Virus record (IMG/VR): IMGVR_UViG_3300027908_000020
Location: 62,001 to 126,000 of that record
From: a virus
DNA length: 64,000 nt
Direction: 5' to 3' (one strand)
The notes beneath the pieces were generated by a model. It had not been told where the DNA came from and ran no database searches. It saw nothing but the letters and a program-made list of their open reading frames with translations. This document shows positions 5,217-62,095 of the stretch, one piece after another. Position 1 is the stretch's first letter. Every line of letters starts with the position of its first letter. Position numbers and translations under genes: made by a program.

Positions 5217-6007
5217 TACGTAGGTTCAGACAAGTCAACGATAATTTATTTAGGGGCAGCGGTCCCTCTATTGAAGACGTTATTTTCTTAAATAAGAAAG
5301 TTGGTATCAATAAAATTGTTAGCCTCGATGAAGCTGCTGGCCAACATATTGATCGTGCTACCAAATTGCTTGGAATGAAGCATATTATGTCTCCTATAGA
5401 TATAAATAGAAGACATTCTCTTATAGAATTTTTAAAACGAGATTTATATAAACTTCTTATGGATGATGGCCCGGTATACGTACACTGCCAAGAAGGCAAA
5501 GATCGCACAGGGCTTGCTATTGCAATGTTTAGATGTTTATATGATGAGTGGACATGCGATGAGGCTCTCAAAGAAGCAGTTAAACTTGGTTTCGGAGTTG
5601 GTGTAAATAAAAAAGTTGTACACCTTTATAAAGATATAATTCAGTCAGCCTGTGAAACTTCTGATAAAAAGCACAAACACATCGATCATAATACCGCAGA
5701 CGATATAGGTTACGCTGATATCGCAACAAATCAAAGAGATGAACTAATGGGTGGAGCATATACATTAGATTCATTCGAACAACAGTCTTGGTCTCCATGG
5801 GAAGATTATACTGTACGTGAATTTCCATTCGCAAGCGCATACCCAGTTTATTTCCCAGAACAATATGAATCAAGGGTAAGCGAAGTCGATGATGAAGATA
5901 CAATTCCATACAATGGACCAGCAATACCACAATCTGGTACGTGGGACACATCAACAGATGGTATTATGGGAGCTGGTCCATCCTTAATAGGTAGTGGATT
6001 TATTTAA
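5213..6007 (+). CDS. Protein-tyrosine/dual-specificity phosphatase
   Basis: The 264-residue product contains VYVHCQEGKDRTGLA, the CX5R phosphatase loop, with Cys92 as nucleophile and Arg98 binding phosphate. The preceding IVSLDE strand and the helix after the loop fit a compact dual-specificity (or phosphoinositide-type) phosphatase domain of about 150 residues. The C-terminal ~110 residues are acidic and Pro/Tyr/Trp-rich, probably disordered, and could tether it to other proteins. It is the last gene of an operon with ATGA overlaps starting at 823. The target (host phosphoprotein, lipid or virion protein) cannot be read from sequence. A convergent GIY-YIG gene overlaps its last 8 bases. Confidence 0.85.
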   Translation: MIRRFRQVNDNLFRGSGPSIEDVIFLNKKVGINKIVSLDEAAGQHIDRATKLLGMKHIMSPIDINRRHSLIEFLKRDLYKLLMDDGPVYVHCQEGKDRTGLAIAMFRCLYDEWTCDEALKEAVKLGFGVGVNKKVVHLYKDIIQSACETSDKKHKHIDHNTADDIGYADIATNQRDELMGGAYTLDSFEQQSWSPWEDYTVREFPFASAYPVYFPEQYESRVSEVDDEDTIPYNGPAIPQSGTWDTSTDGIMGAGPSLIGSGFI

Positions 6008-6599
6008 CCCAAGCTTTACCAGATATTATTTCATAGAATAGAGTATCACTTATATTATATTTTGTAAATATTTCTTTTGCTTTACCAAATTTTTCTTTTC
6101 TTGTTTTATATTGACTATATTCTTTTCTTATTTTATCTGCTATTTCTTGTGTAATTATATGGCGTGCGGATAAATCACCGGTCATTCCATATTGATGATT
6201 TTTCTCTCCATACATATGGCTTTCTTCTCCAAGAATTCCTTTATTCCATCCCGGTTTACCTTTACGATATTCAGATAATTTTTTTCTGGATTCTGGCGTA
6301 TGTTTTGAGCCATTTCTACCGCCTTCTCGTAGGTTATATCCATTTTTTCTGTTCGTTGTGTTATTTAATATAATGAATTGTTTTTCAAAAAAATCAGCGT
6401 CTTCTTGTGTTTCACATTCTTTGATTATCTCAAATAAAAAATTCTCTACACCATATTTATTTATACTGTCGTATAATGGATGATTTATTTTTCTTCTTGC
6501 GTTCTTCTTATGTCGGTGCCATCGTTCTTTGATATTTATAGATTGTCCTATATAAATTTTATTATCTAGTAAGTTTTTAATCTGATATATGAAATACAT
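6000..6599 (-). CDS. GIY-YIG homing endonuclease (Seg-like)
   Basis: The 199-residue product starts with FIYQIKN and NKIYIGQS, the two halves of the GIY-YIG motif, followed by catalytic-type Arg in KERWHRH and NLREGG further on. The C-terminal half has a NUMOD3-like repeat (SEYRKGKPGWNKG) used for DNA contact in this family. It is encoded against the virion genes and its stop codon overlaps the end of the phosphatase gene. A CAGGG sequence upstream of the ATG can act as SD. It sits as an independent insertion between the phosphatase operon and the next virion genes. Confidence 0.9.
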   Translation of the reverse strand: MYFIYQIKNLLDNKIYIGQSINIKERWHRHKKNARRKINHPLYDSINKYGVENFLFEIIKECETQEDADFFEKQFIILNNTTNRKNGYNLREGGRNGSKHTPESRKKLSEYRKGKPGWNKGILGEESHMYGEKNHQYGMTGDLSARHIITQEIADKIRKEYSQYKTRKEKFGKAKEIFTKYNISDTLFYEIISGKAWVK

Positions 6600-11422: not shown

Positions 11423-12244
11423 ATGACAAGAGTAGATTTATCAAACAGTATCGCTGCCGATATGGATAAAGTTTTGAACAGCGAGGAGAGTAAGCAAATG
11501 TTCTCCTCATCTTCAGTCCTCGAAAAGCTTGCGTTTACCAGAGTTGCAGACGAAGGAAAACTCACAAGTGAAATTGAGGAAGAGCTTCTAACAAAAACAG
11601 CAGCTTCTAAATGCGAGTGCACAGATAAACATGGTCATGAAAAACACTGTGATTGTCCAAAAGATTGCTCTTGTCACAAGACTGAGAAATCTTCTGCTCA
11701 AATCGTAAATAGCTTACTCAAAGTTTCAGAAGAACTTGAAGGCGCCGGATTCGAAAAACTTGCAGCATTAAGTATTGTTCTTGCTGAAAGACTTGTTGCT
11801 GAAGCAAAAGAAAAATCAAAATCCAAGTCTTCAAAAAAGGATGAAAAGGCTTCCAAATCCAAATCCGACAAAGCATCTAAGAAAAAGATGACTATGAAAG
11901 AACGTATGGAAAAGATGCGCAAAATGCAAAAGGGCAAGAAGAACAAAGGCAAGTCTTCAAAGAAAAGCTCTCTTCAAGTTCAATTTGACAAGCGCGCCCA
12001 GCAAGCTCCAGCTATGCAACCAAAACCTCAAGACTTTTCCCCAATTAGTGCCCCGAAGCGTGAAGCCGAAGTAATTATGGGTGCATTACCACCAAGGGCT
12101 AAGGGAACCCGCGTTGAAGTACAGTTGGATACAATCAAAGTTCACCCGCCGGAAATGGTACCAACCGTTACTCAGATAGTTCAAAGACTACAAGAAGGCA
12201 ACAGTCTACCGGCAAATAAGCGATATCGTGTAGTATCAGCTTAA
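11423..12244 (+). CDS. Unknown Cys/His- and Lys-rich protein, 273 residues
   Basis: ATG 11423 follows AAGGA. Residues 64-86 hold CECTDKHGHEKHCDCPKDC and a further CH pair, a dense metal-binding-like cluster. A helical-hairpin motif follows (SEELEGAGFEKLAALSIVL), then about 60 residues of Lys/Ser repeats with KKMTMKERMEKMRKM. The C-terminal ~80 residues are folded-looking (RVEVQLDTIKVHPPEMVP). The basic region could bind DNA or the acidic part of the preceding protein. Similar helix and Lys modules occur in the 12372 gene, so the two may be distant paralogues. Function is not known. Confidence 0.7.
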   Translation: MTRVDLSNSIAADMDKVLNSEESKQMFSSSSVLEKLAFTRVADEGKLTSEIEEELLTKTAASKCECTDKHGHEKHCDCPKDCSCHKTEKSSAQIVNSLLKVSEELEGAGFEKLAALSIVLAERLVAEAKEKSKSKSSKKDEKASKSKSDKASKKKMTMKERMEKMRKMQKGKKNKGKSSKKSSLQVQFDKRAQQAPAMQPKPQDFSPISAPKREAEVIMGALPPRAKGTRVEVQLDTIKVHPPEMVPTVTQIVQRLQEGNSLPANKRYRVVSA

Positions 12245-12277: not shown

Positions 12278-12333
12278 AGCACTAGAAATAGATCAAGGCA
12301 TGGAAGCCATACTACTTTCTAGTGCTAGTTTTT
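12278..12333 (+). terminator. Hairpin with T-run, probable Rho-independent terminator
   Basis: AGCACTAGAAA (12278-12288) pairs perfectly with TTTCTAGTGCT (12316-12326), 11 bp, and a small inner ATGG/CCAT hairpin sits in the loop. TTTTT follows at 12329-12333. It lies in the gap between the two Cys/Lys-rich genes and may lower or end transcription from the protease operon. Confidence 0.6.
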
Positions 12334-12371: not shown

Positions 12372-13289
12372 ATGTTCAATAAAAAAGATGCTTCATTTGA
12401 AATAGCGGAGAGTATGGAGAGAGCGCTTGTAACTAATGCTGTTGATACCCAAACAAAAGGTTTGAGCAAGCTAGCGCAAGCAATGGAGCACCTTAATGCT
12501 GCCGCTGAAATTTTCGACAACGCTGGTCTTCGCAAACACGCAGAAGCTGCAACCCAATTGCTTGAATCATTAGCTGCTAAAAAAGGCAAAAAGGGAAAGA
12601 AAAGCAAGCCACCAGTAAAATCAAAGAAGAGCAAGAAACAGCCAGTAAAATCAAAACGTAATTCAAAAGAAAAGGATTCGGCCACCGAAGGGTTAACGAG
12701 CGACAAAATGCTTGACAACCTAGAGCACAAGGGCTGGGTATTTAATGCTGATGATGGCGCCGAAGATGAAAGCTATGCAGAAGATGACAATTTTGTCAAT
12801 CATGGTGATGATTGCATGTGCTCATCATGCATGGATTCAGATGATATGAATTATCTTCGTCATGGCGATGATTGTATGTGTAGTATGTGTATGGATGCAG
12901 ATGATTCAAGTTATCGTCCACACCATCACGGAAACGGCTGTATGTGCATGGATTGCATGGATGCAGACAACGGTGATGTAAATGATATGAAGCTTGGTAT
13001 AACTGATCGTGGCCCCGGGCACGAAAGCCCAGAATACTGGCATCACATGGCTAGAAAACATACCGAACGTAATGAGTTCAGAAAAGCAGAAGAAGCAATG
13101 AAGCGTGCCCTCGAATCAGAAAGATTTGGCAAGTATGACGCTGGTGATGATTCTGCATTTGGTGATGATTTCAATTTTGATTTTGATACATCAAAAGATT
13201 CCGGATATCATGTTCACCGTAATCCAGAAAAAGGGTATCATTTAGAAGCTGATGAAGCAGATTTATTCCCTTCACATAGACGATATTAA
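12372..13289 (+). CDS. Unknown protein with three CxCxxC metal-binding-like repeats
   Basis: ATG 12372 follows AAGGA. The N-terminal ~70 residues are helical with KLAQAMEHLNAAAEIFDNAG, like the helix module of the 11423 protein. A Lys/Ser-rich stretch follows (75-110). Three near-identical units start at His144, His164 and His186: HGDDCMCSSCMDSDD, HGDDCMCSMCMDADD, HGNGCMCMDCMDADN, each with CxCxxC and acidic flanks. The C-terminal part has GHESPEYWHHMARKHTERN and an acidic Asp/Phe segment. The units look like small soft-metal sites (Zn, Fe or Cu), which is inference. I know no named family. It lies between the protease/scaffold gene and the capsid genes, so a virion role is likely. Confidence 0.75.
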   Translation: MFNKKDASFEIAESMERALVTNAVDTQTKGLSKLAQAMEHLNAAAEIFDNAGLRKHAEAATQLLESLAAKKGKKGKKSKPPVKSKKSKKQPVKSKRNSKEKDSATEGLTSDKMLDNLEHKGWVFNADDGAEDESYAEDDNFVNHGDDCMCSSCMDSDDMNYLRHGDDCMCSMCMDADDSSYRPHHHGNGCMCMDCMDADNGDVNDMKLGITDRGPGHESPEYWHHMARKHTERNEFRKAEEAMKRALESERFGKYDAGDDSAFGDDFNFDFDTSKDSGYHVHRNPEKGYHLEADEADLFPSHRRY

Positions 13290-13446: not shown

Positions 13447-13506
13447 ATGTTTTGTTTACAATTGAAGAGGCATTGGGAGAAAAACTCAATGAAATCACAT
13501 CCTTAG
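13447..13506 (+). CDS. 19-codon ORF, possible leader of the 13511 gene
   Basis: AGGAG at 13437-13441 is the best SD in this gap and leads to ATG 13447, which opens only 19 codons to TAG 13504-13506. The GTG used by the next gene lies 4 bases after that stop, in the +1 frame. The ORF could be a coupling leader, the true N-terminus joined by a +1 shift at CCT TAG G, or chance. The rest of the gap (13290-13436) holds only a TTC repeat and AT-rich sequence. Confidence 0.25.
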   Translation: MFCLQLKRHWEKNSMKSHP

Positions 13507-13510
13507 GATC

Positions 13511-14188
13511 GTGCAGGCGGGCAATAGCCTTCCATTTTCGTGGGCGGTTGATCCAAGCGCTGAATTTCAGCCGGGGCAAATTGCTCAACTCACAGTTATT
13601 GGTAACCAGGTGCTAGCAACTGTTTCTAACGGAGCTGCACCAATTGGTATAATTGACGATATTAAAACAAGAGCATTTACATCAACATCATGGGATGAAA
13701 CACTCGTTGTTCCTGCCGCTGGTGTTCTAAATAATGGTCAACTTGTTACTCCAATAGATATAAAAGTAGAACTCAATAATCCAAATGTACTACCTGCAAG
13801 TTTCGTGTCTATACCAGTAGATGTGCAGCTCATCCCAAGAAATGGCGTCGTGATCTTTCCAGCTGGTACCCCGCTTAACTACGATTTACTTGGCACTGGT
13901 TCACCAAATGCTATTAAAACGAATGTAAGATATACTTATCAAATTCCAAATATCATTGGAGATGATAGTACTCTAGGTAATAATAGAGTTACGGTTTGGT
14001 TTCAGAGAATGATTTTCCAGACAGATCAATTCGAAACAAACCAAATTTATCCATTAAATGCTAACCTTTTCGTTAGTGAAATTGGTATGCTTACAACTCG
14101 TCAACCTGCGCCGAATTACCCGGCAGTTGCATTAGTTAGTGCGCCACCGTCGCCGATACTCGGGTTTATCGAGTGCGTGTGGTTATAG
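13511..14188 (+). CDS. Virion protein, capsid-associated type (decoration-like)
   Basis: The product is 225 residues, beta-rich, with VQAGNSLPFSWAVDPSAEF at the N-terminus and APIGIIDDIKTRAFT further on. The frame is open only from 13493, so GTG 13511 is the only ordinary start, and its AGGA is just two bases away. A small beta protein placed before the capsid gene suggests a head decoration or head-completion protein, but I cannot assign a family with certainty. See the leader ORF at 13447 for the start problem. A GIY-YIG gene follows directly. Confidence 0.65.
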   Translation: MQAGNSLPFSWAVDPSAEFQPGQIAQLTVIGNQVLATVSNGAAPIGIIDDIKTRAFTSTSWDETLVVPAAGVLNNGQLVTPIDIKVELNNPNVLPASFVSIPVDVQLIPRNGVVIFPAGTPLNYDLLGTGSPNAIKTNVRYTYQIPNIIGDDSTLGNNRVTVWFQRMIFQTDQFETNQIYPLNANLFVSEIGMLTTRQPAPNYPAVALVSAPPSPILGFIECVWL

Positions 14189-14215
14189 GCCGAACATTTT
14201 GATTTTACTTGATAT

Positions 14216-14237
14216 ATAGCTATTCAGAGGTAGCTAT
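14216..14237 (+). promoter_or_regulatory. Hairpin enclosing SD and start codon of the GIY-YIG gene
   Basis: ATAGCTA (14216-14222) pairs with TAGCTAT (14231-14237), 7 bp. The 8-base loop TTCAGAGG contains the AGAGG SD, and the ATG (14236-14238) begins inside the 3' arm. This would block initiation on transcripts that contain the whole hairpin. Confidence 0.55.
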
Positions 14238-15066
14238 GCATTTTATATACAAAATAACAGATACGATCAACAATAAAGTTTATATTGGACAAACAATTCA
14301 TGTAGAGCGAAGATGGCAAGCGCATCGTTCATATGCAAAAAATCCTGAAAGAACAGGGCAATATATTCATCGTGCTATGGCAACATATGGTATTGATAAC
14401 TTTAACTATGAAGTAATTGCCTGCGCAAAAATTCAATTGGATGCCGATGAAGCAGAAGCTCAAATAATTAATCAATTTAATAGTCAAAGTAAAGAATTTG
14501 GATACAATATCAAACCTGGTGGTGGTACAAAAGGTCACTCCGAAGAAACTAGACAAAAACTTCGTGAAGCTACATTAAAGCAAATAGCAACCAAAGGCCC
14601 GCCAGGACTAGGCTCAAAACGAACCGATGAACAAAAAGCTAAATTAAGTGCTAGCCTCAAAGCTTTAGATAAAGAAAAGATATATACTCCTGAAGTTCGT
14701 AAACGAATGTCTGACGCCCACATTGGCAAGTCACAGCCAAAAGAATTGGTTGAAAAACGCGCCGCGACAATAAGAACAAATAAAGGCGAAATGATATGTG
14801 GCGTGACTGGTTGTGGTGAGATAAAAAGACGATCTTCTACTACTATTGATGGTATTAGATATTGTGATAAACATGCATTGCGCCTCAAAACAACTGGAAC
14901 TCTAGAACTTCGTCCCAGAAAAGCCCACAATAAAAAACAATTCACACCTGAAGAAATTAACGAGATTTTATCTGACAAACGGGCCGCTGCTGTTATTGGT
15001 AAAGATTTTGGTGTAAGCGAGCCTGTTATTTTACGAATTAGAAAAGAAGCTAAAAGGGCCATCTAA
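14236..15066 (+). CDS. GIY-YIG homing endonuclease with zinc finger and C-terminal HTH
   Basis: The start is ATG 14236, with AGAGG at 14226-14230. The 276-residue product has FIYKITD and NKVYIGQT (GIY-YIG), Arg in VERRWQAHR, and NIKPGGGTKGHSEETR, then NUMOD3-like repeats (EVRKRMSDAHIGKSQ). Near residues 185-215 a CGVTGCGE...YCDKH Cys/His cluster looks like a zinc finger. The C-terminus (EEINEILSDKRAAAVIGKDFGVSE) fits a helix-turn-helix for site recognition. It is inserted between two virion genes on their strand, and its initiation region is folded in a hairpin. Confidence 0.9.
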   Translation: MHFIYKITDTINNKVYIGQTIHVERRWQAHRSYAKNPERTGQYIHRAMATYGIDNFNYEVIACAKIQLDADEAEAQIINQFNSQSKEFGYNIKPGGGTKGHSEETRQKLREATLKQIATKGPPGLGSKRTDEQKAKLSASLKALDKEKIYTPEVRKRMSDAHIGKSQPKELVEKRAATIRTNKGEMICGVTGCGEIKRRSSTTIDGIRYCDKHALRLKTTGTLELRPRKAHNKKQFTPEEINEILSDKRAAAVIGKDFGVSEPVILRIRKEAKRAI

Positions 15067-19786: not shown

Positions 19787-20515
19787 ATGGCTCACAGTAA
19801 TATTTTTGATGAATACGCAAAGATTGCATCGGAAAAAGGATTAATAAAACTTTCCGAAGAATCCTCAGAACTTAAGAAATATAAGAATGATACTTATCCA
19901 AGAGTAGGTTCAGATGATATTTCCACAATAGAAGCGCTCTATGGTGTAAAACCAGATAGCCCAATTAAATATAAGCATAATATAATGGAGGCCGCGCACC
20001 CAAAGGCCGTTGTTATTGCACCATCCTACGATAAACTAAACGGACTAGTAGAGAACGAAATAGAAAGACAGAACATCGACTTAAATATCGCTACAAGGTC
20101 TACAACAGGAAAGAACGTAACTCAGGGTCCAAAATATGCCCGCAAAGATTTAATGCTTCAACTAGTTAGAATTGCTAATGATATGGACAATCAGAATGTT
20201 GATGACCTTCGCGCTCTTGCTGATGACTGTATTGAAGTTCTAACATCAAAAAAAGCCAACTGGCCTAGCTGGTTAAATGAAAATAGCATAGAAGATGCTA
20301 TGTCAAATATTGAACAAAGTATTGGTTTAACAACTGATCGAACGCCAGAAGTCGTGCCAGCAAGTAATGAAAAGTCATTTGGTGAACATCCATATGTTAA
20401 TGAAGAACCAGCATTCAATAACATGGATTTATCAGAAATAGCAAAATCTTTAGGGCGTGGCGCATCCGATCAGGATAAGGAATTTTTCCAATTTTTGATG
20501 CAACAAACGGATTAA
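19787..20515 (+). CDS. Unknown 242-residue protein
   Basis: ATG 19787 follows AGGGTG. The product is charged and helical, with SKKANWPSWLNENSIEDAMS near residue 155 and an acidic C-terminus. No motif identifies it. It has its own 35-base leader, and its end overlaps the convergent HNH gene by 4 bases. By context it is another virion or assembly protein. Confidence 0.7.
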   Translation: MAHSNIFDEYAKIASEKGLIKLSEESSELKKYKNDTYPRVGSDDISTIEALYGVKPDSPIKYKHNIMEAAHPKAVVIAPSYDKLNGLVENEIERQNIDLNIATRSTTGKNVTQGPKYARKDLMLQLVRIANDMDNQNVDDLRALADDCIEVLTSKKANWPSWLNENSIEDAMSNIEQSIGLTTDRTPEVVPASNEKSFGEHPYVNEEPAFNNMDLSEIAKSLGRGASDQDKEFFQFLMQQTD

Positions 20516-21444
20516 TTTTTTTGAATGGCCGGGCAAGTAAAATATACTCGTTTTGCCCAAGAAATAAATTCTGCCATTGAACGATTAGCCTTTGACCAAT
20601 TACAAAATTTGCAACAAGATACGATATTATCTAGTGTATGTGGTTTTGTTTGATCCAGCCTATCAATTCCATTACGGAGGATGATATCGCCATTTTTGCA
20701 TTTTGTTTGGTTTGAATTACTTATACCACAATAAAAACAGGGTTGTGTTAGGATAAAAGAAAATAGTGCAAAATCGATATCTATATCTTTGTAAGCTTGT
20801 TTTAATGTGCCCTTGATTCTCTTAAATTGCGGGAGATCATGATTGTTTGCCAGATAGAGTTTTTCATAGTTAGGAATTTCACTATGATTTTTGCTGTTTA
20901 TATTAACTACCATAGCATAAAACTGCTCGGTGCCCATATTTCTCTTTGAGAAATTACATTCTTTACAGGATGGTACGCAGTTATCTGAATTGTGAGGCAA
21001 ATCATTATTGACCCTATCGAGACCATTGTAGATGAACATTTTTCTTACTTCATCATAGTTTGTTCTATTACTCCATTTATTAGAAGGTTTTCTCCCACAG
21101 TAAAAACAATTCAATTGGGAAAGCTTATAGAATTCATCAAATGTCAATGTACCGTCATTATATTTTGCTAAATATGCTGTTCTTGCGGCAGCTACAATTG
21201 GTTCGTATTTTCTTCTAGAAAATCCAACGTTAGTTAAATGTTGAGATGATTTTTCAGACTTTAAGCATCCACAAGATTTTGTATTACCATTTTTTAATTT
21301 ACACCCTCTATCAACAATAGTTATTTCACCACAATTACAAAGACATTTCCAGCTTGGCCGTTTTTGTTTTTTGTTTTGTGATGGTTGCTCTTCTACAACT
21401 AAGAGTCGACCAAACCGTTTTCCCACAAGGTTTTCTTTTCTCAT
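20512..21444 (-). CDS. HNH homing endonuclease with two tandem HNH modules
   Basis: The 310-residue product opens with MRKENLVGKRFGRLLVVEE and a zinc ribbon (WKCLCNCGE...KSCGCL). Two HNH-type modules follow. The first is NCFYCGRKPS, NGLDRVNND, CVPSCKECNFSKR. The second is PCFYCGISNS, NGIDRLDQTK, VSCCKFCNWSKA. Each keeps two Cys pairs, an Asp and an Asn/His-like loop. Related phage HNH proteins carry one module; the paralogue at 22361 has one. It is encoded opposite to the virion genes and its end overlaps the 19787 gene. The second module may be catalytic or only DNA-binding. Confidence 0.85.
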   Translation of the reverse strand: MRKENLVGKRFGRLLVVEEQPSQNKKQKRPSWKCLCNCGEITIVDRGCKLKNGNTKSCGCLKSEKSSQHLTNVGFSRRKYEPIVAAARTAYLAKYNDGTLTFDEFYKLSQLNCFYCGRKPSNKWSNRTNYDEVRKMFIYNGLDRVNNDLPHNSDNCVPSCKECNFSKRNMGTEQFYAMVVNINSKNHSEIPNYEKLYLANNHDLPQFKRIKGTLKQAYKDIDIDFALFSFILTQPCFYCGISNSNQTKCKNGDIILRNGIDRLDQTKPHTLDNIVSCCKFCNWSKANRSMAEFISWAKRVYFTCPAIQKN

Positions 21445-23120: not shown

Positions 23121-24137
23121 ATGTCTAATCTAATGTTTAACTCACAAGGCGAAGTTAACGCCTCGAGCGTAAAAGACGCTCTCGCTTCAATTACGAAGTT
23201 CGCAGCTCTTCTAGAAGAAAATACCCCATCGAATATGGGCCTAACCTCTCCCAATATCTCTGATAGTAAAAGGGATGAGCTTATAAGCCGTGCTATTATG
23301 ACGCAGGAAGGTAAAGTCGCTCTTGCTCAAGCAATGGCAAACCCAATCCGTAGAAACTTGGATTATCATGGAATTGCCCGTAGAGCCCTCGTTGTAGATC
23401 CTCTACCACAAGGTGCATTACCAACATACGATAGAGATATCGATGTTGCAGCCGTTGTTATTTCAAGCAATGGTACCGGTCCAGAATCACGTGTATTCGG
23501 TGACCGCGTTGTAGTTCCAGAGTTCGAAGTTTTCTCGAACCCAACCGTTCGTATCGCAGAAGTTAAGCGCCGCAGATTCAACGTCATTGACCGTGCCGTT
23601 CAGAAGGCTCGTCAAGAAATCATGGCCCAAGAAGATGCAAACGTCTTCGCGGCTCTTGATGCTGCATCATCTATCGAAAACACAGTAATGGATATCGCAG
23701 ATGCCGGTCTTCTAAAGAGAGACTTAGCAGAAATCAAAGTACAGATTGATCGCTGGGACTTAGTTACAACCAAGTTCTTCATGAATATCAACGAGTTCAA
23801 TGATATCCTTAAGTGGGCATCAGGCGGAGGCCAGGGCGTAGGCGGTGGTGAAATCGATCCAGTAACCCAACGTGAAATTCTACAGACCGGTCTATACGCT
23901 CACATCTGGGGAGCTGATATCCTCGTAAGCAAGATCGTTCCTCCTGGAACCGTATATGGCGCGAGCGATCCAGAGTTTGTCGGGGTTATGCCAATTCGTC
24001 AGGATATTGAAGTGCTACCAGCAGATGAGCCAAAGCAATTGAAGCTCGGATGGGTAATAAATGAAATAATTGGAATTGGGATAGTTAATCCACGTGGTGT
24101 TGCAAAAGGAAATAAATCCGTAATAATCGGAGCGTAA
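23121..24137 (+). CDS. Major capsid protein (HK97 fold)
   Basis: The 338-residue product reads as an HK97-type shell protein. It has a helical N-arm (to about 60), ARRALVVDPLPQGALPTYDRD, an E-loop-like region with GDRVVVPEFEVFSNPTVRI, a long helix (RRFNVIDRAVQKARQEIMAQ), and a C-terminal P-domain ending VINEIIGIGIVNPRGVAKGN. The segment ADILVSKIVPPGTVYG followed by an Arg-Gln-Asp-Ile strand is typical of these capsids. Codon choice is biased as for abundant proteins, and the gene has its own leader hairpin and a strong terminator. The N-terminal ~60 residues may be removed by the prohead protease, which is inference. Confidence 0.85.
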   Translation: MSNLMFNSQGEVNASSVKDALASITKFAALLEENTPSNMGLTSPNISDSKRDELISRAIMTQEGKVALAQAMANPIRRNLDYHGIARRALVVDPLPQGALPTYDRDIDVAAVVISSNGTGPESRVFGDRVVVPEFEVFSNPTVRIAEVKRRRFNVIDRAVQKARQEIMAQEDANVFAALDAASSIENTVMDIADAGLLKRDLAEIKVQIDRWDLVTTKFFMNINEFNDILKWASGGGQGVGGGEIDPVTQREILQTGLYAHIWGADILVSKIVPPGTVYGASDPEFVGVMPIRQDIEVLPADEPKQLKLGWVINEIIGIGIVNPRGVAKGNKSVIIGA

Positions 24138-24209: not shown

Positions 24210-24256
24210 TTGACTTTTTCAATTTCTGATATATACTGTATTGAGACCCACTCAAT
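24210..24256 (+). promoter_or_regulatory. Sigma70-type promoter overlapping a leader hairpin
   Basis: TTGACT (24210-24215), a 16-base spacer and TATACT (24232-24237) precede the LAGLIDADG gene. ATTGAG (24240-24245) pairs with CTCAAT (24251-24256) directly before the SD CGGAG (24257-24261). The predicted transcription start (about 24244) lies in the 5' arm, so only transcripts from upstream would form the hairpin. Confidence 0.65.
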
Positions 24257-24270
24257 CGGAGAACCAGACT

Positions 24271-25257
24271 ATGAGAAAACTATTAGACAGCGAAACAAAG
24301 AACAAAATTATTCAGCTTTATCAATCTGGCCAAGGATCAGATACGGTAGCAAAACAATTTAATATTCATCCCAATACAGTGTTAAAACTTCTTAAGAAGG
24401 CAGGACTATCCGCCCGCCCAATACAGAGGAAAATCTCGCCAAGCGACGAACAAGTTATTTCTAAACTTTATCAAGATGGACTTTCCATGAAAGCTATTGG
24501 AAAGCAATTTTCTATTGATCCTGTTTCCATCTTTAATTACTTAAAGAAAAATAATATCCGGTCTCGAACCGCAGAAGAATGCCACAGAAAGTATGCCATT
24601 AATGAAAATTACTTTGATAGCATAGATACACAAGAAAAGGCTTATATTTTAGGATTTTTATATGCTGATGGTGGCAATGTTCAAAAATCCAACTTTGTTG
24701 GAATTCATCTTAATGCAAAAGATATAGATATTCTGTATAAAATATCAGAAAGAATATATGTGGAAAATTCGCGGGACAGGGTGAATACATATGAAAGAAT
24801 AAGAAAAGATAAAAAATTTATTCACTGTAATTTGAATATAAATTCAAAATATGTCTGTAATCAATTAGCAAAATTAGGTTGTGGCCCCAAAAAGAGTTTA
24901 ACATTAACATTCCCAGAATGGCTTATCGATCCAGAACTGCAAAGACATTTTATTAGAGGATATTACGATGGTGATGGAGGATTGCATCTCCCAAGAAAGA
25001 AGGGCAGATCTCCATTAGTACGAATAATATCTACTACACAGTTTTCCGCCATAACTGCTAATATTCTAATAAAAACATTAGGTGTAGGAATATACAGCGA
25101 ACATAAGAAGGATCTAACAAGAATATGTGTAAGCGGCGGAAAACAAGCTAAAACCTTCCTGGGCTGGCTATATAAAGATGCAACCATCTATCTCGATAGA
25201 AAATATAAGCTATACCAGGAGTTCCTGGCAAAGTATAACAATTTATCCATAAAATAG
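24271..25257 (+). CDS. LAGLIDADG homing endonuclease with two N-terminal HTH motifs
   Basis: The start is ATG 24271, 9 bases after CGGAG. The 328-residue product has two helix-turn-helix units (SDTVAKQFNIHPNTVLKLL, SMKAIGKQFSIDPVSIFNYL). LAGLIDADG motifs follow at 126-134 (ILGFLYADG) and 227-236 (IRGYYDGDGG), each with its acidic residue. The C-terminal FLGWLYKDATIYLDRKYKL is shared with the endonucleases at 30396 and 32697. It should make a double-strand cut at a long site. It follows the capsid terminator and has its own promoter, so it is an independent transcription unit. Confidence 0.9.
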   Translation: MRKLLDSETKNKIIQLYQSGQGSDTVAKQFNIHPNTVLKLLKKAGLSARPIQRKISPSDEQVISKLYQDGLSMKAIGKQFSIDPVSIFNYLKKNNIRSRTAEECHRKYAINENYFDSIDTQEKAYILGFLYADGGNVQKSNFVGIHLNAKDIDILYKISERIYVENSRDRVNTYERIRKDKKFIHCNLNINSKYVCNQLAKLGCGPKKSLTLTFPEWLIDPELQRHFIRGYYDGDGGLHLPRKKGRSPLVRIISTTQFSAITANILIKTLGVGIYSEHKKDLTRICVSGGKQAKTFLGWLYKDATIYLDRKYKLYQEFLAKYNNLSIK

Positions 25258-26224: not shown

Positions 26225-26962
26225 ATGGCTAGCAAATATTTTATTTATTTGATTACCAATTTAACTTATAATAAAGTTTATGTTGGTAAAAGCGTTAGCC
26301 CAAGCACTAGATGGAGTGATCACAAAAAAATAGCTATGGGCGGTAAGAAAAAGTATAGAACTGATTTTGCTATCATACATGCAGCTATTAAAAAATATGG
26401 TATTGATAATTTCAAATTTAATATAATTGATGAATTAGATGATGAAATAGAATCTTATTTAGCAGAAACTAAATGGATTTTATTATTGTGTTCTAATTTG
26501 AAAAAATATGGATATAATTGTAATCTTGGTGGTGAGGGAGGAGTGCAGCCCACAGAACGATCAAGACAGAAAATGAGTATTGCCCAAAATAAACCAGAGC
26601 TGCTAAAACTTCATTCCGATCAAATGAAACAAAGGCATAAGGATAATCCAGGGTTCTTATCAGGTATTCATAAAGGAAATAAATATACTAAAGGAAGAAA
26701 ATTAACGCAAAAAGAAAAAGATAATCTTTCTAAAAAATTTTCGGGACGAGTGTTTTCAGAAGAACATAAACAAAAAATTCAACAAGCTTTACCAAAAGGA
26801 GAAAATGTTAAAAGCTCCAAATTGACTGAAAAACAAGTTATTGAAATTCGCAAAAAATATGTGCCGTGTAAGTATGGATGCGTGAAACTTGGAAGAGAAT
26901 ATGGTGTAGATGCTGAAACAATTCGTAGAATTGTTCTTAGAAAAATTTGGAGACATATATGA
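26225..26962 (+). CDS. GIY-YIG homing endonuclease
   Basis: The 245-residue product carries FIYLITNLTYNKVYVGKS (GIY and YVG forms), Arg in STRWSDHK, the conserved Glu helix (ETKWILLL), and NLGGEGG. NUMOD-type repeats follow (NLSKKFSGRVFSEEHKQKI), then a C-terminal HTH (VIEIRKKYVPCKYGCVKLGR). AAGG precedes ATG 26225. The stop overlaps the ATG of the patatin gene (ATGA), so the endonuclease is coupled to a non-mobile neighbour. Confidence 0.9.
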   Translation: MASKYFIYLITNLTYNKVYVGKSVSPSTRWSDHKKIAMGGKKKYRTDFAIIHAAIKKYGIDNFKFNIIDELDDEIESYLAETKWILLLCSNLKKYGYNCNLGGEGGVQPTERSRQKMSIAQNKPELLKLHSDQMKQRHKDNPGFLSGIHKGNKYTKGRKLTQKEKDNLSKKFSGRVFSEEHKQKIQQALPKGENVKSSKLTEKQVIEIRKKYVPCKYGCVKLGREYGVDAETIRRIVLRKIWRHI

Positions 26963-28602: not shown

Positions 28603-28905
28603 ATGGCTAGAAAACCAATAAATGAGAAAGAATCCAGAAGAAGACTATTGAGTTTAGCTAGAGGCTATGGCGCCGAAGCTGAGCTTCTAAATATCTTTAA
28701 GAGATATGATGATCTCCTTAAAGGATGTAAAACAGACGAAGAAAAAAAAGCTGTAGCTACTATGGGCTGTCTTGAAGTGCACAATTTCTTTGGTGGAGAT
28801 GGCGGTTTGACAGTGAGTGGGAAAGTAATTAAGGAAGATCCTTATAAAAGGGATGTATCGGCTGTTACAACGGAAGAAACTTCGCTTAAACTCGGAAAGC
28901 AATGA
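28603..28905 (+). CDS. Unknown 100-residue protein
   Basis: ATG 28603 starts a charged protein with an N-terminal basic helix (KESRRRLLSLARGYGAE), a helical middle, and EVHNFFGGDGGLTVSGKVI. It has no recognisable family. Its stop TGA overlaps the ATG of the HNH gene, which suggests the endonuclease inserted right behind it. Confidence 0.65.
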   Translation: MARKPINEKESRRRLLSLARGYGAEAELLNIFKRYDDLLKGCKTDEEKKAVATMGCLEVHNFFGGDGGLTVSGKVIKEDPYKRDVSAVTTEETSLKLGKQ

Positions 28906-29489
28906 AACATTGTTGTAAGTGCAAAGATTTTACAGATGACTTTAATAAAAATAAGTCGAAGGCCGATGGATTATCTACTGAGTGCAGAAAATGTACAAAG
29001 GTATATTTAGAAAACTATAGGCAGCAGCAAGACTATAAAGAGAAACAAAAAGAATATATGAAAGAATATAGAGAAGATAATAAAGAAGATCTTGCTGCTA
29101 AGCATAAGATTTATATAGGAAATAATAAAGAAGCTGACATAAAAAGAAAAAGTGATTGGTATCAGAAAAATTCTGATAAAGTTAAGAAAAGAATTTATTC
29201 TTATAAAGATGAACATAAAGATCAATATAGATTATATGCAAATAAGCGAATAGCATCAAAGAAAACGGTTATGGTGGAGAATTTTACATTTGATAATATT
29301 ATTGAAAAATATGGCGACAAATGTGTATATTGTAGCGGAATATTTGAGCATATAGATCACTATGTTCCGCTATCAAAAGGCGGTGAACATACGCTTGAAA
29401 ATGTTCGGCCTTCCTGTGCAAGATGTAACTTGACAAAGAACAACAAAATGCCAGAAGATTTTATGAAGACATTAAGAAATAAAAAGTAG
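28902..29489 (+). CDS. HNH homing endonuclease
   Basis: The 195-residue product begins with a zinc ribbon ([11 protein letters not shown]...[12 protein letters not shown]), continues as a long charged helix (residues 40-110), and ends with the HNH core: [38 protein letters not shown]. The His of IDH and the Asn/His pattern match McrA/5-methylcytosine-type HNH nucleases. It is translated by stop-start overlap with the 28603 gene and is followed closely by the cold-shock gene. Confidence 0.9.
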
Positions 29490-30395: not shown

Positions 30396-31637
30396 TTATT
30401 TCTTGTCTGTCCACTTGCCCAAATGATCTTGCTCCGCTGTATCAGCGTTATCCTTAGCAAAATCATCATCAGACAAGTTTAGCTCTTCGTATTTAATATT
30501 CTCAACTTCTACAGAAGAGCGTTGGTGGGTTGGAAATATTGCGTCTTCTTGGAAAGGAATTACATCCTTTTTCTTTACGCCGGGTGGAACTTGTCTTACT
30601 ACAACTTTATCACTTTTAGCAAAAAGAGACCCGGATGTAGCTGATTTGATTAGTTGTTCTTCAGTATAATAATGATGTCTTTTGTCTAAAAGATTCATAG
30701 ACGTCATAGGCTGGATGTGCAGTGCTAAGTCGCCCAAACTAACGACTCTTTTGGATATATTGGTAATCCAAAAGAAATTCTCTGGTCGACGCTGAAAATT
30801 TTTCATCTCATAGTAATGTTTTTTTATTAGCAAGTGTTTTATTTTATCGTGTTTTCTATCAAGGTAGATAGATGCATTTTTGTATAAAAATTCAACAATA
30901 TTTTTAACCTGTCTGTTTCCATTAAAATTTATTACAAAAGTAGAATCATAAGTTTTAACCCTGTTAGTATTAATATTAATATCACATTCTCGTTCTAATA
31001 TTGCATTATAGTTGTGTAAAAATTCATAAGTGCCGCGTACACTGAAATGCGCTTGCTGTATTGTGCGGTCTTTTTGAAGTTTAATTAATCTTAAACAACC
31101 ATCACCATCAAGGTACCCACGCATAAAATGATTGGATAGGGGATGATTTAATATAAATTTTGGAAAAGTGTAGAGAAATGTTTTATTATTAATTACATTG
31201 AATTTTTCAAGATCATTACATACAGTTTTAGAAACTAATGATATTTGACAGCACTTGTATCCTTCTTTACTAGTGTATATTTTAATTGGATTATTACTAT
31301 CGAATAATTTTTTTATCTTTTCTAAATGATCAATATCTTTTAATGATATGGAAATTTTTAATATTTTACTATATTTTCTATTTTGTATAGCTCCATCTGC
31401 CGCAATAAATCCAGCAAGATAAAATGATTCTTCACTATCAGATTGAAAAATTTTTTCATTGAATGAATATATTCCAGTATAATGTTTTGAATAATTAATT
31501 TGATATAATTTCATATATTTGTATATAGAATCTACGGATACATTTAACGCGTCCGACATTTTCTGCATGGATCCGTATATTTTATAGTTATATTCCAGCA
31601 TTTCTCTTGAGAAGAGATTTGATATATTTTGCACCAT
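30396..31637 (-). CDS. LAGLIDADG endonuclease fused in frame to a phage protein
   Basis: Residues 1-277 are a homing endonuclease: an N-terminal HTH (MSDALNVSVDSIYKYMKLY), LAGLIDADG motifs at 74-82 (LAGFIAADG) and 171-180 (FMRGYLDGDG), and the shared end FLYKNASIYLDRKHDKIKHL. From Met278 a different protein begins: ENFFWITNISKRVVSLGDLA, MNLLDKRHHYYTEEQL, SGSLFAKSDKVVVRQVPPG, then an acidic tail, 136 residues in all. Met278 (ATG at 30806) could start it alone, but there is no stop between the parts and only a weak SD. The C-terminal part looks like a small phage structural or accessory protein that the endonuclease gene has invaded at its 5' end. Confidence 0.85.
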   Translation of the reverse strand: MVQNISNLFSREMLEYNYKIYGSMQKMSDALNVSVDSIYKYMKLYQINYSKHYTGIYSFNEKIFQSDSEESFYLAGFIAADGAIQNRKYSKILKISISLKDIDHLEKIKKLFDSNNPIKIYTSKEGYKCCQISLVSKTVCNDLEKFNVINNKTFLYTFPKFILNHPLSNHFMRGYLDGDGCLRLIKLQKDRTIQQAHFSVRGTYEFLHNYNAILERECDININTNRVKTYDSTFVINFNGNRQVKNIVEFLYKNASIYLDRKHDKIKHLLIKKHYYEMKNFQRRPENFFWITNISKRVVSLGDLALHIQPMTSMNLLDKRHHYYTEEQLIKSATSGSLFAKSDKVVVRQVPPGVKKKDVIPFQEDAIFPTHQRSSVEVENIKYEELNLSDDDFAKDNADTAEQDHLGKWTDKK

Positions 31638-32696: not shown

Positions 32697-34283
32697 ATGC
32701 GAAAGAAAATAGAAATCGATACGGAAACATTAATTGAAGCATACAAAAAATCTGGACGGTCTTTAAGAAAGACAGCGAAAATTTTGGGCACTTCAGAGAA
32801 GACGATTCAGCGTCGTCTTAAGGAAATCAATTATAATTATGAAAGTAAAAAGAAATATTTTTGTAATGAGCAATTCTTTGATAAATTAGACGAGAAATCG
32901 TTATATTGGCTCGGATTTTTAGCTACTGATGGAAATATTAGTTTTCCAAATGAATTAAGATTTGGATTAGCCATCAAGGATCGTGCGCATTTAATAAAAT
33001 TTAAAATAGATATTAATTCTAATTCTCCAATACATGACTACATAGCAAAAAGAAATAATGAAAAATTCAAAAAATCTGAATATCCATATTCTACTATCTC
33101 TATTTCATCTAAAAAAATATGTGATAAACTTGCTGAATATAATATAGTTCCGGCTAAAACTTATACTTATGAATTTCCAAATCAACTGCTTAATACCCCA
33201 GAAGTTCGTCATTTCATTAGAGGTTGTATAGATGGAGATGGCTCGGAAGGATTAAGATTCAATAAAGAAAATAATCCATGTCAGGCGCGAGTTTCAATGT
33301 CTGGAAATCCTAAATTTGTCAATCAAGTTTTTGATTTGATAAAAGAAAAGTGCCACCTGTCAAAAGACAGTGGCACTTTTTATTCCGAAGACACCTGGGC
33401 AAAATTTGAATTTGCCGGACACGAAGATATATTAAAAATTAAAGATTTTCTTTATAAAGATGCGACCGTCTTTTTAGAAAGAAAATATAAAAATATATCT
33501 AGGATAGATGACATAATAGAAAATTCAAAGTTATTTATAGTTGATTCACAAATACTTCAAAATAAATATAATGAACTAGGATCTTTTGCAGCAGTTGCAA
33601 AAGAATTTGATGTTTGTAATTCTACAATAAAAAGAAAAATGGATAAACTTAATTTAGAATATAAAGATTTATCACAAATGAAGCATAACGAAAATATATT
33701 TGGAATAGAGCATGAATGTGAGAAACAATTTTATCTCGCCGGATATCTTGCAACCAAATCTTCTATTAGAATTTATTCAGAAAATAAACAATCAATAACT
33801 ATATCAAATAAAAATAAAGATGAAATAGGATTTATTAAAAATTTAATGGAAACAGATGCAATTATAAACGGTGATAGTTTATATAATATTTCATTATTTA
33901 ATAAGAAAATTATTTCAGATTTAGTAAGATTTGGTATTAATTCAAATAAATTGAAGGAATATTCAATACCAAATTGGATCGTTAATCACAATGCTATTAA
34001 TCATTTTGTACGAGGATGTTTAGATGGTAAAAGTTGTTTGTCCGATAAATCACAACTTATATTAGAAATAACGGGCCCACTGGGATATTTGTCAGATATA
34101 AAAAATATATTTATAGATAAATGTAATTTAACTTCTACAAATGAAATACGTAGTAGAAAAAATAAAGATAGTCATCGTCTCACTTATTCTGGTAATTCTG
34201 TTATTAAAATCGCTCAATTCCTCTACAAGGACGCAACTATCTTCCTGCCACGTAAACGAGAAATAATTCAGCACCTGCTATAG
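32697..34283 (+). CDS. Tandem-duplicated LAGLIDADG endonuclease, second half degenerate
   Basis: The 528-residue product contains two copies of one unit, HTH plus LAGLIDADG domain. Copy 1 (1-265): SLRKTAKILGTSEKTIQRRL, motifs LGFLATDGN (72-80) and IRGCIDGDG (174-182), end FLYKDATVFLERKYK. Copy 2 (285-528): SFAAVAKEFDVCNSTIKRKM, motifs LAGYLATKS and VRGCLDGKS, end FLYKDATIFLPRKRE. Copy 2 has lost the catalytic Asp in both motifs (DG to KS or SS). Copy 1 could cut alone, with copy 2 giving extra DNA contacts. The gene has its own consensus promoter, and the convergent 34278 gene overlaps its end. Confidence 0.9.
   Translation: MRKKIEIDTETLIEAYKKSGRSLRKTAKILGTSEKTIQRRLKEINYNYESKKKYFCNEQFFDKLDEKSLYWLGFLATDGNISFPNELRFGLAIKDRAHLIKFKIDINSNSPIHDYIAKRNNEKFKKSEYPYSTISISSKKICDKLAEYNIVPAKTYTYEFPNQLLNTPEVRHFIRGCIDGDGSEGLRFNKENNPCQARVSMSGNPKFVNQVFDLIKEKCHLSKDSGTFYSEDTWAKFEFAGHEDILKIKDFLYKDATVFLERKYKNISRIDDIIENSKLFIVDSQILQNKYNELGSFAAVAKEFDVCNSTIKRKMDKLNLEYKDLSQMKHNENIFGIEHECEKQFYLAGYLATKSSIRIYSENKQSITISNKNKDEIGFIKNLMETDAIINGDSLYNISLFNKKIISDLVRFGINSNKLKEYSIPNWIVNHNAINHFVRGCLDGKSCLSDKSQLILEITGPLGYLSDIKNIFIDKCNLTSTNEIRSRKNKDSHRLTYSGNSVIKIAQFLYKDATIFLPRKREIIQHLL
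33346..33381 (+). terminator. Terminator-like hairpin inside the endonuclease coding region
   Basis: AAAAGTGCCAC (33346-33356), a bulged C, TGTC (33358-33361), loop AAAA, then GACA and GTGGCACTTTT (33366-33380), ending in T's to 33381. It has stem strength and T-run like a true terminator but lies in the frame of the first LAGLIDADG copy (residues about 217-228). Confidence 0.5.
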
Positions 34284-61246: not shown

Positions 61247-62095
61247 ATGACATCTTTACTCAATGGTGTAGGACAATCAGTTGGAAGTCTAGGCAATCAA
61301 GCATCCGGGCCGCTTGACCAAGCTGTAAATTCGATATCAAATATTGGGGAGCAGCTGGGAATTCTGCCTTTTAGCCCATCAAACAGCGGCGAAGGATTGC
61401 CATCTAGCGATGTTCAGCCGCTGCAGCCTAGTACAACACAAAGAAACATAGTTAATTGGTTTGTTCCTGAAGTTGGAATCATTAATATGTATGTTAATCC
61501 ACAAGCTATTGAATATTCTTTTAAGAAGCTTATAACACCTCAAAGAACAAAAGGTGGGTATATCATACAATACTGGGGCGAAGAACTTACAACTCTTAAC
61601 ATAAGAGGGCATACCGGCGGTTCCGGTGTTGAAGGACTAAATGTTCTATATGAAATATATAGAGCAGAACAGCTTTTGTTTGATCCAATTGCATTAACAA
61701 TGGCATCAGCAAATTCTCTGTCTGGAGTCAACAGTTTAGTAAATAGTGTACTAGGAAATGCTGGAGGACTAGGATCTGTCCTGCAAAACGCAACACAGGG
61801 CGTTCTTGGGCTTAATCCATTAAGTCAATCGATTGTGCCAACAAACATCCCATCGCTTGCCTCAATAGCAATGGGTATAGAAATGTACTATACAGGATGG
61901 GTATTTCACGGATACTTTACGAACTTTTCTTTCACTGAGAGCGCTGATCGTTTAGGCCTATTTGATTATAACATAGGTTTTACTGTTACGCAAAAGAGGG
62001 GATACAGAACAAATTCACTTCCTTGGCAGCGTAGTGCAATTAGCGGGCCAAGCAATAATAGTCCTGGTGGAACTCCTTTGAGTTTCCGTGGGTAA
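61247..62095 (+). CDS. Baseplate/tail protein, 282 residues
   Basis: ATG 61247 lies one base after the tape-measure stop. After a Ser/Gly/Asn-rich N-terminus (to about 60) a folded region reads MYVNPQAIEYSFKKLITPQR, TKGGYIIQYWGEELTTLNIR and GLNVLYEIYRAEQLLFDPIA, with a beta-rich C-terminus (FHGYFTNFSFTESADRLGLF). The order of WGEEL, IRGHTG and GIEMYYTGWVFHGY strands resembles small baseplate hub-associated proteins of contractile tails. Exact role inferred. Confidence 0.6.
   Translation: MTSLLNGVGQSVGSLGNQASGPLDQAVNSISNIGEQLGILPFSPSNSGEGLPSSDVQPLQPSTTQRNIVNWFVPEVGIINMYVNPQAIEYSFKKLITPQRTKGGYIIQYWGEELTTLNIRGHTGGSGVEGLNVLYEIYRAEQLLFDPIALTMASANSLSGVNSLVNSVLGNAGGLGSVLQNATQGVLGLNPLSQSIVPTNIPSLASIAMGIEMYYTGWVFHGYFTNFSFTESADRLGLFDYNIGFTVTQKRGYRTNSLPWQRSAISGPSNNSPGGTPLSFRG

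Follow-up and report, generated by a model that had tools for sequence, protein, structure and literature searches.

What does a protein with three Cys clusters do among the structural genes of a phage? The window, a stretch of 64,000 nucleotides (positions 62,001 to 126,000) of the 150,580-base virus record IMGVR_UViG_3300027908_000020, encodes such a protein, P0001. We ask here whether its Cys clusters are metal sites, how widely they are shared, and which role in the phage head they might serve.

P0001 in the head cluster

The P0001 gene, with TAAGGATCACTAATG upstream of its ATG, belongs to a cluster of head genes (Table 1). A preliminary description placed it next to the capsid genes, which is loose: P0001 lies between a prohead protease and a conserved head-cluster gene, and 9.8 kb separate it from the major capsid gene further downstream. 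By its capsid, the closest isolate is Bacillus phage G, and the protease has a tblastn match to phage G gp19. The head cluster of phage G thus shares a homologous major capsid protein and protease, whereas homologues of P0001 and of its upstream neighbour, gene X, were not found there.

Table 1. Features of P0001 and of the surrounding head cluster, in window positions
Feature	Position	Strand	Basis or remark
Prohead protease domain fused to long charged scaffold-like tail, 1276 aa	7572..11402	+	phrog_18299 head maturation protease, 4.5e-16
Gene X: N-terminal helices, Cys/His cluster, helical hairpin, Lys-rich tail	11423..12244	+	
Gene X Cys/His cluster CECTDKHGHEKHCDCPKDCSCH	11612..11677	+	
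P0001, Cys-repeat head-cluster protein	12372..13289	+	ATG start, 305 aa
P0001 N-terminal helical domain, residues 1-69	12372..12578	+	HMM; AlphaFold2 helices
P0001 Lys-rich linker, residues 70-100	12579..12671	+	Low model confidence
P0001 conserved motif TEGLTSDKMLDNLEHKGWVFNADD, residues 105-128	12684..12755	+	Alignments; AlphaFold2 helix 110-119
P0001 unit 1 HGDDCMCSSCMD, residues 144-155	12801..12836	+	
P0001 unit 2 HGDDCMCSMCMD, residues 164-175	12861..12896	+	
P0001 unit 3 HGNGCMCMDCMD, residues 186-197	12927..12962	+	
P0001 predicted long helix, residues 220-252	13029..13127	+	AlphaFold2
Conserved head-cluster gene directly 3' of P0001	13511..14188	+	Homologues in 99 loci
Major capsid protein	23121..24137	+	phrog_2522, 1.3e-77; 54.7% to phage G gp27

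In the AlphaFold2 model, the N-terminal domain forms helices 7-50 and 54-70, a block with pLDDT up to 96; the Cys region, modeled without metal, has no confident structure and is predicted to be disordered. The helix at residues 220-252 has no counterpart in aligned relatives, and its TPR-like score is weak, under the cut-off. The preliminary description knew no phage family of this kind, and the searches agree: P0001 has no significant match in Pfam, PHROGs or PDB, nor any among 50,697 phage records, Foldseek finds nothing at E ≤ 0.001, and literature searches returned no metal-binding or Cys-rich phage head protein.

A strong RNA hairpin (12278-12326, -25.2 kcal/mol, z -4.95) followed by a T run lies between gene X and P0001, which are separated by 127 bases here and by only ~10 in close relatives. 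The gene at 13511-14188 lacks the usual start: relatives begin with MLRL(V/I)Q, and the window has ATC-CTT-AGG-ATC-GTG (within 13447-13520); an upstream ATG at 13487, preceded by GGGAG, is in another frame, so that its use would need a +1 shift at CCT-TAG, or else there is an assembly indel. Many homing-type endonuclease genes, with no Rfam intron match, are scattered amid the structural genes (173-763, 6000-6599, 14209-15066, called from GIY-YIG-like sequence only, 20512-21444, 24241-25257, 26225-26962, 28902-29489, 30396-31637 and 32697-34283).

The H-x3-C-x-C-x2-C units

The acidic stretch of P0001 contains three H-x3-C-x-C-x2-C units, spaced by 20 and 22 residues, and all nine of the nine Cys residues fall inside them. 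The triple repeat noted in the preliminary description is therefore real: it lies in a 305-residue frame, none of 200,000 shuffles of P0001 yields three CxCxxC motifs (two motifs arise in 2 cases), and no other plausible gene of the window contains CxCxxC. Units are present in seven distinct proteins: three in the window protein, two each in L082, L083, L084 and L088, and one each in L003 and L057, the last in the altered form HEEGCDCAMC. Across these 13 units exactly four positions never vary, the three Cys and the His at -4, whereas the Met and Asp do; the His was not included in the search pattern. A further cluster, HYWDGHSRDECEEWSxCPQH, is present in L084 and L082.

The units evolve under purifying selection. 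Orthologous units have pN/pS of 0-0.28, and silent sites are saturated among the three window units at a pN of 0.19-0.27, all rough figures from short sequences; the Cys codons alternate between TGT and TGC, a silent change. The invariant set of one His and three Cys is what one metal site per unit would predict, and each unit is best read as a putative zinc-type HCCC site. The repeated metal site of the preliminary description is supported to this extent, with binding itself putative.

Neither Pfam nor PDB families match the unit by sequence. Zinc knuckles and zinc ribbons also have four His/Cys ligands within a short stretch; metallothioneins are also CxC-containing, repeated and variable in copy number. 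Metallothioneins, however, are small and consist almost wholly of Cys clusters, whereas P0001 has only 9 Cys in 305 residues, its N-domain is folded, and its conserved motif contains no Cys.

Relatives of P0001 and gene X

Direct searches with P0001 (tblastn of phage records, IMG/VR patterns, PDB) found nothing; its relatives were reached via capsid and protease searches of IMG/VR, which gave 160 loci, some sharing contigs. Homologues were found only in the uncultured phages of IMG/VR, with no host-linked relative in the 84,980 species genomes searched. Within this set, BLASTP with P0001 alone reaches many members, and the N-domain HMM matches P0001 at E 8.8e-27, P0001 itself being among the model's 24 seed sequences. 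The family, conserved in the head cluster and lacking annotation, combines a helical N-domain, a Lys-rich linker, the motif GLTxxKMxxNLxxxGxxFNxDD and an acidic tail, and always lies between the prohead protease and the 13511-type head gene. P0001 has this locus position, the N-terminal helical domain, the C-terminal GLTxxKM..N..G..FN motif and an acidic tail of the B type.

Most relatives have a tandem gene pair: A, of ~75 aa, consists of the N-domain only, and its paralogue B has the N-domain, a variable middle, the GLTxxKM..N..G..FN motif and the acidic tail. P0001 and its closest relatives unite the A and B parts in a single gene, which in the N-domain tree branches close to the midpoint root, outside both the A and the B clade; it may be a fusion of A and B or the ancestral form before duplication. 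A programmed frameshift into a Cys tail in the 75-residue relatives is rejected, as their A genes are complete and B follows as a gene of its own. The N-domain is found once or twice per record and solely at the head cluster (14/14 whole records, up to 481 kb); its presence in this gene set only leaves the idea of a general capsid-targeting tag unsupported. A homologue of B in L095 and one of gene X in L107, used as queries, have no match in the 50,697 phage records. In L094 (14964-15890), the C-terminal domain of the B homologue matches phrog_727 and, below the cut-off, Pfam DUF6321.

Most relatives lack the units: the acidic tails of other B-motif proteins contain no H-x3-C-x-C-x2-C, L094, L111 and L158/L160 have different Cys patterns in the same tail region, and the copy number within the unit-bearing lineage is 3, 2 or 1. 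By these comparisons, the units were inserted into the acidic tail in one small lineage. The conservation of the Cys residues, to which the preliminary description tied its metal site, thus holds in the close lineage and fails in the wider family.

In AlphaFold2, the layout of gene X resembles that of P0001. A strict CxxC-n-CxC cluster occupies the same place in 25/57 gene X candidates, is present in two or three copies in L096, L155, L144 and L150, and is lost in L084 and L088; when any four Cys in a 40-residue span count as a cluster, 22/53 relatives have none in X or B. These shares are rough, since the contigs are not independent and X was assigned by a simple rule. Because 22 of the 53 relatives lack a cluster in either gene, Cys clusters are dispensable in the group. 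The gene X homologue of L160 (14169-15206) has 24 Cys in a metallothionein-like stretch. Gene X of L107, L095, L102 and L096 repeats a SSADDNDARKKK-like peptide in varying copy number in the region that separates its Cys cluster from the hairpin, a possible cleavage site or charge-patch repeat; the similar AEDENDARKGKK is present in the protease tail of the window.

Candidate roles and similar motifs in head proteases

The Cys clusters in P0001-type and neighboring genes suggest a putative metal role in head building. The four invariant positions, the purifying selection, the constant locus of the family, the disorder of the Cys region when modeled without metal, the presence of a cluster in gene X in about half of the relatives and the distinct Cys modules in the tails of L094 and L111 count for this role; the dispensability of the clusters in the group, the loss of the gene X cluster in L084 and L088, and the lack of a relative with a solved structure in PDB or of a Foldseek match at the threshold above, count against it. 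P0001 is quite possibly, if not yet probably, a procapsid core or inner head protein whose tail units bind metal, stiffening or cross-linking the core during head building. Its helical N-domain would probably dock onto the scaffold or shell, with the Lys-rich linker and acidic tail flexible; each unit would bind one metal ion, most likely zinc, via one His and three Cys, and the metal would fold short knuckles or join the tails of neighboring subunits, either of which would give the core this stiffness or cross-linking; the adjacent-gene protease may later cut the tail. All five elements, metal binding, zinc, core location, cross-linking and processing, we infer.

The core location is assigned by analogy to phage T4, with gene order the only guide to an internal position. 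Within the T4 prohead, scaffold, protease and internal proteins form a core, several components of which are dispensable (PMC9958956). The P0001 gene lies in the protease-capsid interval, as do genes of T4-type core and internal proteins (gp22, gp67, gp68, IPI-III), which are likewise charged, flexible and encoded near the head protease, and whose accessory parts are dispensable and change fast. By contrast, no sequence or fold similarity of P0001 to the T4 proteins was found (PHROGs, PDB, Foldseek). T4 core proteins are not known to contain Cys repeats. The metal-dependent role in head assembly proposed in the preliminary description is plausible from the constant position of the family among the head genes, but head assembly cannot generally require the metal site, as the Cys units are missing from most relatives; because the wider family does without them, the units most likely adjust tail folding or cross-linking and are not required.

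The same variability could mark a protein that is packaged and injected, its conserved N-part carrying a fast-changing C-part into the head and its Cys units acting in the next host cell by metal capture or host-factor binding. The contrast between the conserved N-domain and a very variable tail, with Cys modules that differ by lineage, fits this idea, and the T4 proteins IPI-III, gp68 and gpAlt are core proteins dispensable for assembly, IPI being injected and inhibiting a host nuclease (PMC9958956). We nevertheless consider such a cargo unlikely: the N-domain is confined to a one- or two-gene set and is absent from other cargo genes in the 14 whole records, and the tail in the wider family, merely acidic with a conserved motif, is more like that of a structural protein. 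A store or buffer, in which a many-copy metallothionein-like tail takes up or packages metal and plays no structural part, would explain the one to three copies and the 24-Cys gene X of L160 but is quite unlikely given the low total of Cys (9/305 residues) and the many relatives that lost clusters.

Metal need not be involved if the Cys units, reduced in the cell, form disulfides after lysis and lock the head. CxC and CxxC spacings are redox-capable, and two adjacent head genes carry Cys clusters; yet disulfides fit the units badly because the Cys number per unit is odd and three Cys with the invariant His make a complete four-ligand set, and there is no indication of a shell location, so that a redox switch seems distinctly improbable. 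Finally, functionless growth by slippage in a disordered tail would account for the low-complexity surroundings, the restriction to one lineage and the varying copy number, but is highly improbable: silent sites differ between units while H and C are kept, three units far exceed the chance level set by the shuffles, and purifying selection already largely contradicts it. If the putative core protein does bind metal, head assembly in this group of very large uncultured phages, none of whose head-core proteins is annotated, would include a metal-dependent step that is unusual for phages; with four invariant ligands and natural copy numbers of 1, 2 and 3, the units are a clean case in which to test the function of such sites.

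An IMG/VR scan for CMCxxCMD returned this lineage, likely chance frames and two sets of head proteases; a second profile search added no new unit-bearing sequence. The proteases, of families different from P0001, are DUF2213-type enzymes with HPAKCMCDDCMD (L164, L166, L172, L181, L183) and S49-type enzymes with three Cys repeats (L163, L182). In L166, HPAKCMCDDCMD is also an H-x3-C-x-C-x2-C sequence in a charged tail, and L163 has three CxCxxC-containing repeats in such a tail; the pattern was taken from P0001, so the CMC/CMD resemblance reflects selection, but the His at -4 in L166 was unselected. Cys clusters are not a usual trait of head protease tails, being absent from 8 sampled records with related proteases; because these records of isolated relatives lack them, each gain looks lineage-specific. 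The protease motifs are a lead to a common theme, short of proof. The broadest version of that theme, somewhat unlikely in our estimate, is that metal ions are a tunable glue in giant-phage head cores, with short His/Cys sites repeatedly gained, multiplied and lost in flexible core and protease-scaffold tails, here and independently in the DUF2213 and S49 phages, setting core stability or maturation timing. The protease of the window has a Cys/His pattern of its own, ICSDCGNVARTEHDFCSHM, at about residues 196-216, which is found in phage G gp19 too and is perhaps a structural zinc site.
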